The position numbers and the translations under genes are program-made. A stretch of 41,380 bases of DNA, from the NCBI GenBank assembly GCA_009702755.1, contig WLHL01000011.1, positions 1 through 41,380 of the forward strand. The letters are read 5' to 3'. Source of the DNA: Actinomycetota bacterium. GTDB taxonomy: Bacteria; Actinomycetota; Acidimicrobiia; Acidimicrobiales; Ilumatobacteraceae. Below are positions 711 to 13,641 of the stretch, piece by piece; position 1 is the first letter of the stretch, and each line of letters opens with the position of its first letter. The notes beneath the pieces were generated by a model, which was not told the DNA's origin, made no database searches, and worked only from the letters and a program-made list of their open reading frames with translations.

Positions 711-1703
711 ATGAGCATGACCTTCCCAGACCCAGACAAGTTGGATGATTATCTGTTGGAGCCGACTCATGAAGCGGAGTTGAGCCGAGTGCAGGCTCGT
801 CGTGATTCTGTAAAGGCAGAAGGCGCGATCGCTTCCAAGTATTGGGGTGGCATTCAGTGGCGCATCGTGCTGACATTCAGTGTCTATGCAGTGCTGTGGA
901 CCAGTGTGCTTGTTCTTGGTGTGAATGGAATGATTCCGCTCTGGGCCGGACTCATCGTCAACACCGTGTTGGCAGCAACCTTCTATATGCCGATGCACGA
1001 AGCCGTTCACAAAAACATCTGGGGCAAAGTGTCACGTGGGCGAGTGGTGGAAGAAATCATCGGCATGTTGTGCAGCATCCCGCTCTTGATGCCATTCCGT
1101 AACCACCGCGCATCACACATGCGTCACCATGCGTATACGAATGATCCTGATCGCGACCCTGACTACTTCTCTCAGGGCGAACTCCGCGAGTTGCCAGTGA
1201 AGTTCCTCTCAGTGACTTTCGTTAATGCGTTATTGCCGCTCTTTGCATTGGTTCCGCCAATGCGCAAACTGCTGCATCCAGCGATGGTGCGTGCGAATCA
1301 GGCGAGCGCAAACAAGACCGAGGGTTTGATGCAGTTGCGTTTCTGGCTCATCACCCATGGCGTTCTTCTGACGGCTGTTCTTACTGGCTTCGGATGGCAA
1401 GCATTCCTGTTGTGGTATCTCCCAGCTCGACTGCAGTTGTTCTGGCTCGCCTTTGTGTTTGCTTGGTATCCGCATCATCCCGGTAATGAACAGGGTCGAT
1501 ACGTCGACACCCGCGTCGCAGTGTTCCCCGGATCAACGTTCTTGATTCGCGGACATGATCATCACGCATTGCATCACTTGTTCCCTCGTGTTGCGCATTA
1601 TCGCTTGCCTTCAATGTGGCAAGAGATGGCTGCAGATCTAGTTCCTAAGGGTGTTCGTGCTGAAGGCCGTGCTCTCGAGGCAACTGGCCCCGTCGTTTGG
1701 TGA
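711..1703 (+). CDS. Membrane fatty acid desaturase family protein
   Basis: 330 residues of the membrane di-iron desaturase/hydroxylase superfamily (PF00487-like). All three His clusters are visible: HEAVH at 96-100, HRASHMRHH at 132-140 and HDHHALHH at 282-289. Hydrophobic segments near 52-72, 78-95, 164-183 and 211-252 fit the four-helix membrane core. The likely reaction is O2- and electron-donor-dependent desaturation or hydroxylation of a lipid; the substrate (acyl chain or carotenoid) cannot be read from sequence. ATG 711 is preceded by TAGTGT (699-704) and a 6-nt gap, so a leaderless start is favoured over the ATG six bases further on. A second, distinct desaturase lies at 27960-28895. 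Confidence 0.85.
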   Translation: MSMTFPDPDKLDDYLLEPTHEAELSRVQARRDSVKAEGAIASKYWGGIQWRIVLTFSVYAVLWTSVLVLGVNGMIPLWAGLIVNTVLAATFYMPMHEAVHKNIWGKVSRGRVVEEIIGMLCSIPLLMPFRNHRASHMRHHAYTNDPDRDPDYFSQGELRELPVKFLSVTFVNALLPLFALVPPMRKLLHPAMVRANQASANKTEGLMQLRFWLITHGVLLTAVLTGFGWQAFLLWYLPARLQLFWLAFVFAWYPHHPGNEQGRYVDTRVAVFPGSTFLIRGHDHHALHHLFPRVAHYRLPSMWQEMAADLVPKGVRAEGRALEATGPVVW

Positions 1704-8109: not shown

Positions 8110-8607
8110 TCATTCGCTGAGATGTAATCCACCGAACTCGTCAAAGGTGATCCGATGTGAGCTACCGAATCGGTAGGTGAGATCGGTAACGACATCATCG
8201 GCGTCGCCTGTTCGTTCGATCGTTTCGGTTGCTGGCGGTGCATGGTGTTTGCAGTACAACTCTTGGCTGATGATCTCGCCTTGGTCATCGAGACGTGTGG
8301 CAACGAAGCGACTATCAGCACGGCACGAAACGCAACGCTTAAATCCCACCTTCCAGATGTGCATCCAATGACGCTCTTCAACGACCCATCGCTGGCCTTC
8401 GCGACGACGTGCATCGAGAAGTGCAATCGCTTCGTCACCATGTGGGTCACAGTGAAAGTGCACTTCCTGAGTGGTGCCACTGGTGTCCACCAAGCTTGAG
8501 GTGTATGTGGAATGTGCGGTGCAGTATTCACATGCAATCACTGACGACGGATCCGCCGCACTCCAATGCCGCATTGCGGTCACGATCTTCCACTTACTTT
8601 TGTCCAT
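8110..8607 (-). CDS. Cys/His-rich protein of unknown function
   Basis: 165 residues, not recognised. It has four Cys/His clusters: CEYC (about 26-29), HFHCDPH (about 50-56), CVSC (about 92-95) and CKHH (about 118-121), which could make two zinc-binding sites (C2-C-H and C2-C-H). The rest is soluble and mixed in charge. A perfect AGGAGG lies 8 nt before the ATG, unusual here because most neighbours lack a ribosome site. It is divergent from the GNAT gene at 8823. The C-terminus (SSHRITFDEFGGLHLSE) has no known motif. Confidence 0.65.
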   Translation of the reverse strand: MDKSKWKIVTAMRHWSAADPSSVIACEYCTAHSTYTSSLVDTSGTTQEVHFHCDPHGDEAIALLDARRREGQRWVVEERHWMHIWKVGFKRCVSCRADSRFVATRLDDQGEIISQELYCKHHAPPATETIERTGDADDVVTDLTYRFGSSHRITFDEFGGLHLSE

Positions 8608-8822
8608 GACTGATTCCTCCTATTGAGGACATCAGAGGCCCGGATGTTTGCGCAATGCGCCTCATCCCCTTGCGGGTAGCACCGTGGCCGGGTGGCTCGG
8701 TTGCTGGGTCTCCATGGGGGAGACCTCTCTTGATGTCACTTTCAATGTATCGCAGGGGTGAGTCAGAGGGTGTCGAATATCTAATGTGGACAAGAGACGT
8801 ACGCGAGCCGGGGAGTCAGTTC
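8608..8822. promoter_or_regulatory. 215-bp divergent intergenic region with several hairpins
   Basis: No convincing ORF. On the plus strand, leading to the GNAT gene, three foldable elements are seen: GATG-ttt-GCGC-aat-GCGC-ct-CATC (8643-8665), an AGCA/CCG to CGGT/TGCT stem with a GC-rich interior (about 8678-8705), and GGTCTCC-atggg-GGAGACC (8707-8725). A GGGGAG ribosome site precedes ATG 8823. This could be a structured leader; I cannot assign it to a known riboswitch class. Confidence 0.35.
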
Positions 8823-9405: not shown

Positions 9406-9681
9406 TCAGAACTCGAAGATGTCGCCAAGAAGGCTCGACATCTTCTTTTTCTTTGGCGACTTCATTGAGTAGCTGCGCTCAATCTCGTCACTGTCATCAC
9501 GACGTGCTGCTGGGCGAGATTGGCTGGGACGAGAAGATGGTGCGTCGTCGTTTGCGCGTTCAATGAGCTTGTCTAACTCGCCACGGTCAAGCCACACTCC
9601 GCGACAATCGGGGCAGTAATCAATCTCGATACCTTGTCGATCTGACATGACCAATGTGGTGGAGCAATGTGGACATTTCAT
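9406..9681 (-). CDS. TFIIB-type zinc-ribbon protein
   Basis: 91 residues. The N-terminal half is the zf-TFIIB family (PF13453): MKCPHCSTTLVMSDRQGIEIDYCPDCRGVWLDRGELDKLI, with CPHC and CPDC as the zinc ligands. A Ser/Arg-rich linker and a basic stretch (KSPKKKK) lead to SSLLGDIFEF, a conserved hydrophobic tail in such proteins. The role is unknown. It is convergent with the GNAT gene with a 10-bp gap. Confidence 0.85.
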   Translation of the reverse strand: MKCPHCSTTLVMSDRQGIEIDYCPDCRGVWLDRGELDKLIERANDDAPSSRPSQSRPAARRDDSDEIERSYSMKSPKKKKMSSLLGDIFEF

Positions 9682-9770: not shown

Positions 9771-10070
9771 TTAAAAACGGTCGGGACGCGTCACCTGTGC
9801 CGGAGTCATCCAAGCGATCGTGGCGTATTTGTTGAAATACTTTGCTGACAACATGTCAAGAATTGCCTGTGCCACTTTCTCGGTGACCACGGTCTCCAAG
9901 CGAATACTTGGACCGTTCAAATCAAGAGCATGCTTTCCCGTGACGCCCTCGCCATGTACATGACCGACCGAGTAGCCCTTTGCGCCGCAGGCCTTGATGT
10001 CGGCAATCAGTTTCTGTTCAACAACAGATTCAGAAATGATGGTGACAAGTTGAAGTGGAACTGTGTTCAT
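9771..10070 (-). CDS. sbtB: SbtB-like PII-type regulator
   Basis: 99 residues from ATG 10070, ten bases after the stop codon of the SbtA-like permease. The ferredoxin-like PII fold is visible in VPLQLVTIISESVVEQKLIADIKACGAKGYSVGHVHGEG (beta1-alpha1-beta2, with a T-loop from about residue 35), RLETVVTEKVAQAILDML and YATIAWMTPAQV. In cyanobacteria SbtB binds adenylyl nucleotides (AMP, cAMP) and gates the SbtA bicarbonate transporter. The C-terminal Cys-containing redox loop of many cyanobacterial SbtB proteins is absent. The pairing with SbtA is the main support. Confidence 0.82.
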   Translation of the reverse strand: MNTVPLQLVTIISESVVEQKLIADIKACGAKGYSVGHVHGEGVTGKHALDLNGPSIRLETVVTEKVAQAILDMLSAKYFNKYATIAWMTPAQVTRPDRF

Positions 10071-10080
10071 GTTGTGCCAA

Positions 10081-11037
10081 TCACGTAAGAGCTTGCGCCA
10101 TTGCAATGTAGAGCGGAATTCCCACCGTCAGGTTAAAGGGGAAGGTAATGCCCAGAGATGCGGTGACGTATAGACCTGGACTTGCCTGTGGGAGTGCGAT
10201 GCGGACAGCTGCTGGGGCTGCAATGTAAGAGGCACTTCCGGCGAGAACGGCCATCACGGCGACCCCACCTGTCGAGAGTCCGACTGCCGCACCACCGAGC
10301 GCACCGAGGAAACCATTGATGAGGGGCACAATGATTCCCAAGAGCACAACAACGGGGCCAGCTGATTTGATGTCGCGAAGACGTTCAGCTGCAATCACGC
10401 CGAGCTCGATGAGGAACAGGGTGAGGGCACCCGCAAACAGACCAACGAAAACCGGGTCTGTTGGTGCAAGGCGAGTGGGGCCAACAACGAAACCAATCAC
10501 AATGCCGATTCCCAGCAACGCAATGCTCTTTCCACGTACGACTTCGCTGAGAGCAGACTTCCAGTCACTGCCCTCGGTGGCTCCACGCGCAAGAAAGAGT
10601 GCAACGACAATGCCGATGATTTCGAGGATGGCGAGAAGGCCAGCCATGTACCCCTCATATGAAATCTCCCGCGCTTCAAGGGTGGTGAGAAGAACCGTGA
10701 ATGTCACCGCCGAAACGGATCCGTAGTGCGCAGCGAGTGCTGATGCGTTGATTACGGAGAGGCGCCCAGCAAAACGGAAAAGCGCATAGGCAATCAGAGG
10801 CGTGACGACTCCCAAGATGATCGAAACAATGAGGGGCTTCCATAAGTCAGAAAGAGATGCTGCTGCGAGCGCTCGGCCACCTTTGAGTCCAATCGCGAGA
10901 AGAAGAAATGTGGAGATGATGGGGTACAGCGACTCTGGAAGACGAACATCAAAGCGAAGCAGTGTTGCGATAAGAGCGACAAGAAATGCAATCACCGGTG
11001 CGGTGAGCAAGTTGTCCATGATGGAGGCAGCAAACAT
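10081..11037 (-). CDS. sbtA: SbtA-like sodium-dependent bicarbonate permease
   Basis: 318 residues, almost all hydrophobic, with about ten membrane helices in two inverted halves, as in PF05982. Conserved features: RLPESLYPIISTFLLLAIGLKGG in the first half; AAHYGSVSAVTFTVLLTTLE in the substrate/Na+ region; and the matching second-half element VLAGSASYIAAPAAVRIALPQASPGLYVTASLGITFPFNLTVGIPLY. The family takes up HCO3- with Na+. ATG 11037 overlaps the TAA of the regulator gene (TAATG), so the two are translationally coupled; ATG 11019 is an alternative. In a probable heterotroph it would feed carboxylation reactions; this role is inferred. Confidence 0.85.
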   Translation of the reverse strand: MFAASIMDNLLTAPVIAFLVALIATLLRFDVRLPESLYPIISTFLLLAIGLKGGRALAAASLSDLWKPLIVSIILGVVTPLIAYALFRFAGRLSVINASALAAHYGSVSAVTFTVLLTTLEAREISYEGYMAGLLAILEIIGIVVALFLARGATEGSDWKSALSEVVRGKSIALLGIGIVIGFVVGPTRLAPTDPVFVGLFAGALTLFLIELGVIAAERLRDIKSAGPVVVLLGIIVPLINGFLGALGGAAVGLSTGGVAVMAVLAGSASYIAAPAAVRIALPQASPGLYVTASLGITFPFNLTVGIPLYIAMAQALT

Positions 11038-11354
11038 TATGAGGATTTCGATTTCTTGAGGAGTGGGGAGATGACGGCGCGAATGTCGTGGTCAGATTCA
11101 AGCGGATGACGAAGTGGACGATTGAGATTGACTTCGTAGACGTTGTTTCGTCCATCCTTCAAGATGGTGATGTAGCCGGATTCAGACAGGTCTTGAATAA
11201 TGCGATGCACCGTGCGTTCACGGATACCGACGCGACGGGCAATGTCACCCAAACGCATGTCGGGTTGCTTGGCAACGCAGACGAGAACGTGGGCGTGATT
11301 GCTAAAGAATGTCCACGAAGGAAGGTCTTCTGATGATTCCAAAAAACTTGACAT
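11037..11354 (-). CDS. Winged-helix transcriptional regulator of the sbt operon
   Basis: 105 residues. DIARRVGIRERTVHRIIQDLSESGYI (about 37-62) is a winged helix-turn-helix and KDGRNNVYEVN (about 67-77) the wing; the fold is MarR/ArsR-like, and no ligand domain is present. The start at 11354 is set by a strong promoter whose -10 lies 7 nt upstream; an in-frame ATG at 11381 lies inside that promoter. It is first in the operon and directly coupled to sbtA. A 46-bp imperfect palindrome covers its promoter, so autoregulation is likely (inference). Confidence 0.82.
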   Translation of the reverse strand: MSSFLESSEDLPSWTFFSNHAHVLVCVAKQPDMRLGDIARRVGIRERTVHRIIQDLSESGYITILKDGRNNVYEVNLNRPLRHPLESDHDIRAVISPLLKKSKSS

Positions 11355-11392
11355 AAAACACATGATATAAAAGTCATGCATCTTGTGTCAAG
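11347..11392 (-). promoter_or_regulatory. Promoter inside a 46-bp palindrome (putative operator)
   Basis: Minus strand: TTGACA (11386-11391), 18-nt spacer, TATCAT (11362-11367), 7 nt, then ATG 11354. The whole element is a dyad: 19-nt arms starting CTTGACA and ending TGTCAAG, with a second matching block CATGA/TCATG next to an 8-nt centre; 15 of 19 arm positions are symmetric and the four mismatches are all transitions. The dyad spans the -35, the -10 and the first codons of the regulator. Confidence 0.7.
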
Positions 11393-11420
11393 TAATGGGG
11401 CGTGCCCCAAGAGAGTGCGG

Positions 11421-12176
11421 CTACATCAAGGCGCCGACAAACACCTGCCAAGCGAGAAGGGACTTCGCGACCAAGCTCAAGATGATGTACCAACGCTCTC
11501 CATAGAGATAATCGGCCCATTTGCCTTGGGCCTTGTATTGCTTCCATTGCACAAGTGCGAAGCAGTTGAAGAAGATGAAGAGTGAAATCACAATGCCGAC
11601 GACGAACCCAGGAACAGTGGTTTCTGGTGGGCCACTGGGGGACAGCATGTTGATGAAAACGGCGATCCAGGGAACAGCGCCTGCGATGCAGCCAAACCAG
11701 AACGGCAGCATGTCACCACTGCCTGGCTGTGAATAGCGCTCCTGCAACCAACCGAAGAGAATCATGCTGACGTTGACTCCAAAGATTGCAAGAAACGCGA
11801 CGTAATCGGTGACTCCATTGAGTTGGAGGATGATGACAATCATGATGGACGAAGAGAGTGAGTATTCGATCCATCGATACACATTTATGTGGCGCTTCAA
11901 GCCGTCGACATACTTTGGAAAGATGGGGCCTGAACTCACGAAGAAGTGAAAGAACGCAGATAGGGCCATGAACGACGCAACTGCGTAACTGGTATTGAGG
12001 CTGAAGAGTTCAACTGGTGCTGCGAAGTTACCGGTGCCTGGGGCATCGGATAAGTACGTGGCACGGACAGGCAGTGACCAATCGGTGGAGAGAAACAATA
12101 TTGCTAGTAGGGAAACGAGATGGAGGCAACCAGCTATGAGGTTGAGTTTTCTCAGACTTTTGAATTGATCAATCAT
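11421..12176 (-). CDS. Heliorhodopsin
   Basis: 251 residues with seven hydrophobic helices. Diagnostic heliorhodopsin elements: LNLIAGCLHLVS with His19 in helix A, ALSAFFHFF with His77 in helix B, RWIEYSLSSSIMIVIIL with Glu104 (position of the Schiff-base counterion Glu107 of HeR 48C12) and YGERWYIILSLVAKSLLAWQVF with Lys238, the retinal-binding lysine. Type-1 pump motifs (DTD/NDQ) are absent. Heliorhodopsins insert with the N-terminus inside, have slow photocycles and no known pumping; function is unsettled. GATACT lies 6 nt before the ATG and a palindrome lies just upstream. The sbt operon follows 66 bp downstream. Confidence 0.95.
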   Translation of the reverse strand: MIDQFKSLRKLNLIAGCLHLVSLLAILFLSTDWSLPVRATYLSDAPGTGNFAAPVELFSLNTSYAVASFMALSAFFHFFVSSGPIFPKYVDGLKRHINVYRWIEYSLSSSIMIVIILQLNGVTDYVAFLAIFGVNVSMILFGWLQERYSQPGSGDMLPFWFGCIAGAVPWIAVFINMLSPSGPPETTVPGFVVGIVISLFIFFNCFALVQWKQYKAQGKWADYLYGERWYIILSLVAKSLLAWQVFVGALM

Positions 12177-12182
12177 GGGGAA

Positions 12183-12209
12183 AGTATCTCATCACTTGGG
12201 TATCAAGTG
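12183..12209 (-). promoter_or_regulatory. Heliorhodopsin promoter with adjacent palindrome
   Basis: On the minus strand GATACT (12183-12188) ends 6 nt before the start codon, the leaderless layout of this window. Five bases upstream is CACTTG-GGTAT-CAAGTG (12193-12209), a perfect 6+5+6 dyad covering the spacer between -10 and the expected -35. It has the size of a dimeric repressor or activator site. No protein can be assigned. Confidence 0.5.
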
Positions 12210-12246: not shown

Positions 12247-12801
12247 TCAGGACAATTCAGCGAGACGATCCTTCACGATTGCTCGCATGAGGGCACCGTC
12301 TACCTTCCAATCAAAGGGAACTTTGAATGTCTTCTTGTTGGATTCGAACTTCTCGAGTTTCTTGGCAAATGTCTTCACGAAATCTGTGTTGAAGGGCCCA
12401 ATAGTGAGGTGATTCTTCGAAACAGAAATTCCCAAGATGTATTGGTCGCCAGTCTTGAGCATTGGCTGGTTCCATGCCATGACCAATTCAAGATCTGTGT
12501 ACGTCTTCGTAATGCTTGCGAAGATCTCCTTGATCTTCTTCGCGACAGAAGGATCCACGGTCTTGAAGTAGTCAGTAGGGGTAGCGAACTTCTTTGATGT
12601 TGTCGAGCCTCGGACGTACATCACCAATGCGTTGGCATGAGCCTGGCTAAAGCCATGGTTCTCACGCAGAAAAGCGATCTGTTCGGGATACTTTGCCTCG
12701 CCGAGTTCGCGAAGTCGATCTATCCATAGCGAAATGGGGCCACCGTGTTTCTTTTCAATTGCAGGGAAGAACTTCGAGCGGTCTCCGTCATTGCTTGCCA
12801 C
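12247..12801 (-). CDS. DUF4287 + DUF1801 protein
   Basis: About 184 residues. The N-terminal part (AIEKKHGGPISLWIDRLRELG, QIAFLRENHGFSQAHANALVMYVRG) matches DUF4287; the C-terminal part (DYFKTVDPSVAKKIKEIFASI, LVMAWNQPMLKTGDQYILGISVSKNHLTIGPF) matches DUF1801 (YdhG-like, frataxin-like fold). This two-domain form is common in actinobacteria and unexplained. GTG 12801 is preceded by TATGAT and 6 nt; TTG 12822 and ATG 12969 are in frame, but the last would overlap the upstream gene by about 98 bp, so the start is uncertain. Confidence 0.75.
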   Translation of the reverse strand: MASNDGDRSKFFPAIEKKHGGPISLWIDRLRELGEAKYPEQIAFLRENHGFSQAHANALVMYVRGSTTSKKFATPTDYFKTVDPSVAKKIKEIFASITKTYTDLELVMAWNQPMLKTGDQYILGISVSKNHLTIGPFNTDFVKTFAKKLEKFESNKKTFKVPFDWKVDGALMRAIVKDRLAELS

Positions 12802-12871
12802 GTGAACATCATATTCGGCCAACCATGTCGTCTTATTGAGATTGCTCAGTGTGGGTGGTGCAGAAACGAAG

Positions 12872-13528
12872 TTATGAAGCGGTGACGAGACCGGCGACGA
12901 TGTCGGCAGCAACCGTGCGAACGGGGCGTTGTTCACGGCGTGCGATAGAGCGGATCTCCTGAAATGCACTAGGGAAGTCGGTGTGATTTCTTTCAGCGAG
13001 AATTCCCTTGGCCTGCTCGATGATCACCCGGCTGTCAAGAGCACCTTGTAACTGGCTGACGAGTGAATGGGCCTGTTGAATGCGATGGGTCTGGTCAATT
13101 GTCGTAGCAGCAATGTCGGCAATGCTTTGTAGAACTGCGATGGAATGTTCTCCGAGCGCAGAATGGCCCGCGCTGGAGAGATGAATGACCCCGAGTGCAG
13201 CTCCGCGAATGCGAAGAGGAAATGCATATTCGCAGATGAGTTCTCGCCCATTGCCGATGACTGAGAATTCAGACTGCAACGTATTGATAGCTCGTTGCGC
13301 CAAATAGGGAATGGTCTCAGTGACTGGACGAATGGACTTGTCACTTCGAACGGTGAGGGGAGTTTCATTGCCCGTTGGGATCATCACAATCTCGCCTTGT
13401 TCAAGAGATGATGCCTCGAGGCAGTAGGAAAGCAGCATGTGAAGGCCATCTTCGTCAATGCATTCGCAAAAGATGTCGGTCATGTCGGCAAACATTTCGG
13501 CGATTGCACGAGTGTCATTGTTCAAATT
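12872..13528 (-). CDS. GAF-ANTAR domain regulator
   Basis: 218 residues. Residues about 10-150 form a GAF-like sensor (LICEYAFPLRIRGAALGVIHLSSAG, LQSIADIAATTID). Residues about 160-215 are an ANTAR RNA-binding domain: LQGALDSRVIIEQAKGILAERNHTDFPSAFQEIRSIAR. ANTAR proteins bind paired hexanucleotide-loop hairpins in nascent RNA and prevent termination. The start at 13528 is supported by AGGGAG 7-8 nt upstream; an in-frame ATG at 13570 adds 14 residues. No matching RNA hairpin pair was identified nearby. Target genes unknown. Confidence 0.85.
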   Translation of the reverse strand, partial: NLNNDTRAIAEMFADMTDIFCECIDEDGLHMLLSYCLEASSLEQGEIVMIPTGNETPLTVRSDKSIRPVTETIPYLAQRAINTLQSEFSVIGNGRELICEYAFPLRIRGAALGVIHLSSAGHSALGEHSIAVLQSIADIAATTIDQTHRIQQAHSLVSQLQGALDSRVIIEQAKGILAERNHTDFPSAFQEIRSIARREQRPVRTVAADIVAGLVTAS

Positions 13529-13641
13529 CATTGGTGTCTCCCTGTTGAAGCCATTCCACCCGATAATCAAGGTGCTTCAACAAGGCATTGGTACCAAATG
13601 AAATTGACACAAGTACTCCAGGCGCTAATGCTGGACATTCA

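Follow-up and report, generated by a model that had tools for sequence, protein, structure and literature searches.

A heliorhodopsin gene beside a probably self-regulated SbtA-type transporter cassette in a plastic region of Ilumatobacteraceae genomes

The window analyzed here is a whole stretch of 41,380 nucleotides (contig WLHL01000011.1, assembly GCA_009702755.1) from a member of the Ilumatobacteraceae. Genes for a heliorhodopsin (HeR), a winged-helix regulator (wHTH), an SbtA-type permease and a PII-like protein lie on its minus strand in this order. The initial annotation had placed four such genes here, and profile matches confirm their positions, strand and order. With the likeliest starts (11354 for wHTH and 10070 for the PII-like gene), its spacing is also reproduced: 66 bp between HeR and wHTH, a 1-bp overlap between wHTH and SbtA and 10 bp between SbtA and the PII-like gene. 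The features of the locus are the following:

12872-13570, minus strand: GAF-like/ANTAR protein, two genes upstream of HeR (PF03861, 3.6e-16)
12247-12969, minus strand: DUF4287 protein, upstream of HeR (PF14117, 6.6e-12)
11421-12176, minus strand: heliorhodopsin, 251 aa (PF18761 and NF038020; Lys238, Glu104)
11397-11408, minus strand: GGGG-CACG-CCCC hairpin following the HeR stop codon, candidate weak terminator
11362-11391, minus strand: sigma-70-like promoter TTGACA-18-TATCAT between HeR and wHTH, 11/12 matches
11358-11381, no strand assigned: predicted palindromic operator ACACATGATATAAAAGTCATGCAT, overlapping the -10 element
11037-11354, minus strand: winged-helix regulator, 105 aa from the ATG at 11354 (PF09339, PF01047 and PF13412 matches)
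10081-11037, minus strand: SbtA-type permease of the type I clade, 318 aa, with putative Na+ coupling (PF05982, 7cye, model and tree)
9771-10070, minus strand: PII-like protein, TTHA0516/SbtB-like (PF00543; short T-loop, no CGPxGC tail)
9406-9681, minus strand: small zinc-ribbon protein after the PII-like gene (PF13453, 2.2e-20)

The DUF4287 gene is a common neighbor of both HeR and the wHTH-SbtA cassette. The GAF-like/ANTAR protein (12872-13570, minus strand) is a candidate RNA antiterminator, and antitermination of the same-strand run is possible. Elsewhere in the window, a SAM-I/IV riboswitch (8634-8741, minus strand; 57.9 bits) directly precedes an ORF (8110-8607, minus strand) for a 165-aa Cys/His-rich protein without a Pfam or NCBIfam match; the same pair also occurs in loci L138, L136 and L152.

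The heliorhodopsin matches PF18761 over the full length of the profile (residues 8-250, 310 bits, 1.4e-92) and scores 319 bits against the NF038020 equivalog, for which the cut-off is 100. Its matches to the 6uh3 and 48C12 structures have an E-value of about 1e-94. Lys238 (in SLVAKS) and Glu104 (in RWIEYS) align with the retinal lysine and the counterion of solved heliorhodopsins, e.g., 6uh3, which upholds the earlier identification of protein and residues alike. The protein is thus, like 48C12 and its relatives, a full-length HeR with both functional residues. One genome of the same genus has a second HeR gene (G270:C4:49352-50083, L181), whose branch in the HeR tree is very long. A search for Blh-type retinal synthesis (PF15461) gave no match in the window's genome, and control genomes also gave none. 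Membrane desaturase/carotene-hydroxylase-like proteins (PF00487) recur near HeR (window 711-1703, plus strand; L119, L152 and others). Their CrtR-like match of 62 bits lies under the cut-off, and they may have a bearing on carotenoid or retinal supply. In G527, a type I wHTH-SbtA cassette has a gene for an RPE65-type carotenoid cleavage oxygenase (L104:2233-3597) nearby.

The permease matches PF05982 with 325 bits (4.5e-97) and 7cye with 4e-33, and superposition of its AlphaFold2 model (pLDDT 84) on the SbtA structure 8zor gives a TM-score of 0.92. The overall fold is shared with bile acid and pantoate transporters, with SbtA structures as by far the best match. In Synechocystis SbtA, HCO3- was docked on Ser114, Tyr140, Ser324 and Ser327, and alanine mutants of these contacts retain 10-40% activity (PMC8352866). 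Two of the four are kept in the window permease (Ser109 and Ser270, equivalent to Ser114 and Ser324), while Leu135 stands for Tyr140 and Ala273 for Ser327. According to the family alignment, the tyrosine and the second serine are lost in nearly all relatives. The Na+ loop segments (YGSVS, GSASY) are similar to those of SbtA and are kept. Na+-coupled uptake of a small anion is the likely function, and bicarbonate is a possible cargo. The earlier assignment as an SbtA-type HCO3-/Na+ permease hence stands for family and fold and falls short for bicarbonate. A different substrate, either another small anion or an organic acid, is a serious contender at somewhat below even chances and is compatible with any other reading of the locus. 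The two replaced contacts, the fold common to bile acid and pantoate transporters and a genome without a RuBisCO match argue for it; the two retained serines, the Na+ loop segments, SbtA as the nearest fold and the adjoining PII-like gene argue against it.

RuBisCO-based carbon fixation was rejected, as the window's genome (85% complete) yields no RuBisCO match. This fits the probable heterotroph that had been proposed, yet an anaplerotic use of carbon does not follow from it. A beta-carbonic anhydrase match is present in the same genome, as is a second PF05982 permease of type III (G000:C20:5043-6014, L089), which is 33% identical to the first. Two wHTH paralogues lie near this second permease, one of them with the same palindrome, and no PII gene was found on its contig (C20). 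Compared with the cyanobacterial SbtA-SbtB pair (slr1512-slr1513), the window's locus shares the tandem of a PF05982 permease and a PII-like gene, but it adds a putative winged-helix autoregulator, in a host in which RuBisCO was not found.

The PII-like protein (PF00543, 57.6 bits, 1.7e-15) finds its best solved relative in TTHA0516 of Thermus (2cz4, 2.9e-23), whereas the match to SbtB (slr1513) is weaker (3e-7). Some SbtB members carry a CGPxGC tail. In the alignment, the T-loop of the window protein (GEGVTGKHALDLNG) is about 6 aa shorter than that of slr1513, has no arginines at the positions of Arg43 and Arg46, and the cysteine tail is missing; its length equals that of TTHA0516, with VTGKHA in place of SRGIRS. 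These differences in T-loop and tail rule out a classical SbtB, although the gene does lie in tandem with sbtA. The SbtB/PII-like protein of the initial annotation is therefore better described as PII-like and closer to TTHA0516. The window's genome encodes two more PII proteins, both with strong matches. The PII gene is absent from the HeR-linked loci of G470 and G476 and from the g6 cassettes that are readable past SbtA, and PII gating was consequently discarded as the basis of a link with HeR.

The regulator belongs to the IclR/MarR-like profile class. Its model is a winged helix, for which a fold search returned only weak, generic ArsR/MarR/AspA matches. An alternative ORF start at 11381 overlaps the operator, while the family alignment begins near the ATG at 11354. 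Promoter-like sites are as frequent in the region as expected (2 found versus 2.1 expected), but the one between HeR and wHTH has 11/12 matches and is conserved in both G526 and G533. The spacing from its -10 element to the ATG suggests that the cassette RNA is leaderless or has a very short leader. The overlapping palindrome recurs, with the consensus ATACATGATATNNATATCATGTAT, where wHTH begins in type I cassettes, both those linked to HeR and several that are not. In type II relatives, the half-sites ATACATGA/TCATGTAT become ATACCTGA/TCAGGTAT, and such matched changes on both sides fit the operator of a dimer. A matrix scan located the palindrome within 150 bp of 25 out of 48 wHTH starts, a count that includes sites from which the matrix was built; the remaining counts are free of training sites. 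None of the 94 HeR genes has a palindrome within 300 bp, and 1.58 Mb of sequence gave only two additional sites, each a short way upstream of an Sbt gene. Within the window's genome, good palindromes are confined to the present cassette and the other Sbt locus, on C20. At the sequence level, the cassette thus looks self-regulated: its promoter is overlapped by a palindrome whose half-sites covary and which is absent elsewhere. As the palindrome lies at wHTH starts and beside no HeR, the regulator most likely acts on Sbt loci only. Shared control of HeR and cassette through the wHTH operator was rejected on the same counts. The hairpin after HeR, of which the stem is kept in G526 with a different loop, is weak, and read-through from HeR is therefore possible.

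The exact order HeR-wHTH-SbtA-PII is restricted to the window's genome and two relatives (L002, L003; HeR 92% identical) among 51 HeR loci taken from genome contigs. A co-transcribed HeR-wHTH-SbtA-SbtB operon conserved by descent can be dismissed, as these three genomes belong to one genus. In an order-level sample of 397 genomes, HeR occurs above cut-off in 117 and PF05982 in 22, and 18 of the latter carry both (Fisher 2e-7, without phylogenetic correction). Among these 18, only the window's genome has the two genes linked, and no linkage was found outside its family in this sample. Within the family (221 genomes), HeR is present in 146 genomes, PF05982 in 60 and both in about 50. Of these roughly 50 genomes, 11 have HeR no more than 3 kb from an SbtA-family gene on the same contig, across six genera (G000, G526, G533; G581, G582; G470, G476; G481; G463, G460; G564), while 0.2 would be expected. 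The Poisson probability is about 1e-15, or 1e-7 when each of the six genera counts once, in a statistic that ignores shared ancestry and contig breaks and uses genome sizes rounded per genus. The proximity is hence not due to chance, and the neighborhood that the initial annotation singled out does exceed random expectation. Its order is nearly unique, but the proximity itself recurs in other arrangements. Linkage hidden across contig ends was sought as well: no end overlaps were found in eight genomes (some loci end before the contig end) and none in G040.

The window's cassette falls into the type I clade of the Sbt tree (25 rows); the tree also has two type II groups and one type III group, which holds the second Sbt of the window's genome. 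Linkage to HeR is found in four type I sublineages and two type II lineages (G581/G582 and G481). On the HeR tree, a quick tree with one very long branch, six changes of state are required to account for the linked rows. One HeR clade is linked with type I Sbt in eight out of 13 genomes, whereas another is linked with it in none of five tree genomes. Arrangements differ: HeR precedes the cassette in the window, opposite-strand genes lie between HeR and cassette in G460, and in G470 the cassette is followed by a glyoxalase-like gene, DUF4287 and then HeR. In G546, the closest relative outside the three genomes (HeR 84% identical), the upstream genes are the same, but a desaturase and other genes occupy the cassette slot, which counts against the proposed link. 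The slot downstream of HeR is plastic. At type I Sbt loci without HeR, 47 out of 167 neighbor families are common to HeR loci of other genera (type II: 32 out of 300; type III: 7 out of 42), which indicates that HeR and type I cassettes take their neighbors from the same set of small, shuffled genes (for DUF4287, desaturase, ASCH, glyoxalase and isochorismatase proteins). This common plastic region accounts for part of the proximity and weakens the claim of a dedicated HeR-SbtA pair. The type II linked loci lie among unrelated genes, outside this explanation; in G481, for instance, the neighbors are arginine-pathway and phenylalanyl-tRNA synthetase-like genes.

The reading that we consider probable is that of an autonomous, self-regulated wHTH-SbtA-PII cassette and a separate HeR gene, both located in one plastic region. 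The three cassette genes would form a self-contained transporter unit, in which the winged-helix repressor is presumed to bind the palindrome over its own promoter and so to control an SbtA-fold permease for small-anion uptake, probably coupled to Na+. In this lineage, the PII-like trimer would also gate the permease through its T-loop. HeR, just upstream, probably has its own transcription unit. Both HeR and this cassette type would have stayed or come close in the same region, with changing order, in several genera. An autonomous cassette is argued for by the promoter in the HeR-wHTH gap, by a palindrome at HeR-linked and HeR-distant cassettes and at no HeR, and by the wHTH-SbtA pair, which is also conserved without HeR, just as G546 keeps HeR and not the cassette. 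Two observations argue against autonomy, as does possible read-through past the weak hairpin: HeR and cassette share their strand in each of the eight genomes with type I linkage, which random placement would not require, and in G481 and G581/G582 HeR adjoins SbtA genes from two further clades, among unrelated genes.

The same two observations weigh against a strong competitor, in which HeR and transporter are unrelated and their proximity is a mere by-product of the shared plastic region. The common neighbor pool and the confinement of linkage to one family favor this account, and we regard it as quite conceivable, at odds not far below even. A functional pair, in which illuminated HeR binds or modulates the permease, is unlikely, a minority hypothesis that can be tested directly. 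It draws on the recurrent proximity in six genera, on one HeR clade paired with one SbtA clade always on the same strand, on the links with two other SbtA clades and on SbtA being the family near HeR in most genera of an Sbt-enriched sample. There are also precedents: HeR has been reported to modulate the product of a neighboring gene, be it the ABC transporter OmrDE (PMC11109279) or glutamine synthetase (PMC9529153); the window's HeR likewise adjoins a transporter that it may modulate. However, the order is not constant, with opposite-strand genes in between in G460 and G463, the same two clades lie apart in five genomes, linkage was not seen outside the family in the 397-genome order sample, the plastic region explains part of the proximity, and the operator is not common to HeR and cassette. 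Least probable is one long operon from about 14751 to 9406 (metallopeptidase-like, GAF-ANTAR, DUF4287, HeR, wHTH, SbtA, PII, zinc ribbon), perhaps under ANTAR antitermination, in which HeR and transporter are co-transcribed: the run is on one strand with short gaps, is kept in G526 and shows no strong terminator after HeR, but it contains a strong promoter and a predicted operator, its block upstream of HeR persists without the cassette in G546, where slot genes are exchanged, and it was not seen in other genera. An HeR operon has been defined by the same strand and a gap under 10 bp (PMC8612252), while at the sequence level the gap here is 66 bp and holds the 11/12 promoter match.

Against this background, the light-tuned anaplerotic carbon supply proposed earlier is not sustained: the cassette has its own promoter and a predicted operator that is found at no HeR, two of four bicarbonate contacts are replaced, and PII is absent from several HeR-linked cassettes. 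The four-gene module survives in its genes and gaps, but its 66-bp gap contains a promoter and operator and its last gene is an atypical SbtB relative. Likewise, gene identities and non-random proximity hold for the HeR-SbtA neighborhood, while its functional reading does not. A conserved operator predicts the target of a regulator; with its own promoter, it counts here against a single light-controlled operon. Most likely, the cassette is autonomous and regulates itself.

The function of HeR is mostly read from its neighbors, and a recurrent SbtA-family neighbor in one family adds one that is unlisted in HeR surveys as far as their available parts show. SbtA/PII is not among the ten frequent HeR-neighbor families of a 2024 survey (PMC11109279), and the main text of a 2021 survey mentions neither bicarbonate nor sodium (PMC8612252). 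Judged by the titles and abstracts of papers containing both 'heliorhodopsin' and 'bicarbonate', an incomplete literature set, no HeR-bicarbonate link is apparent. It is a long shot, slightly more so than the functional pair in general, that one HeR clade has come to regulate an SbtA-type anion symporter in response to light, with the permease gene kept nearby through repeated rearrangements. If so, freshwater actinobacteria that do not photosynthesize would use light to tune how much bicarbonate, or which amount of some other small anion, they take up.
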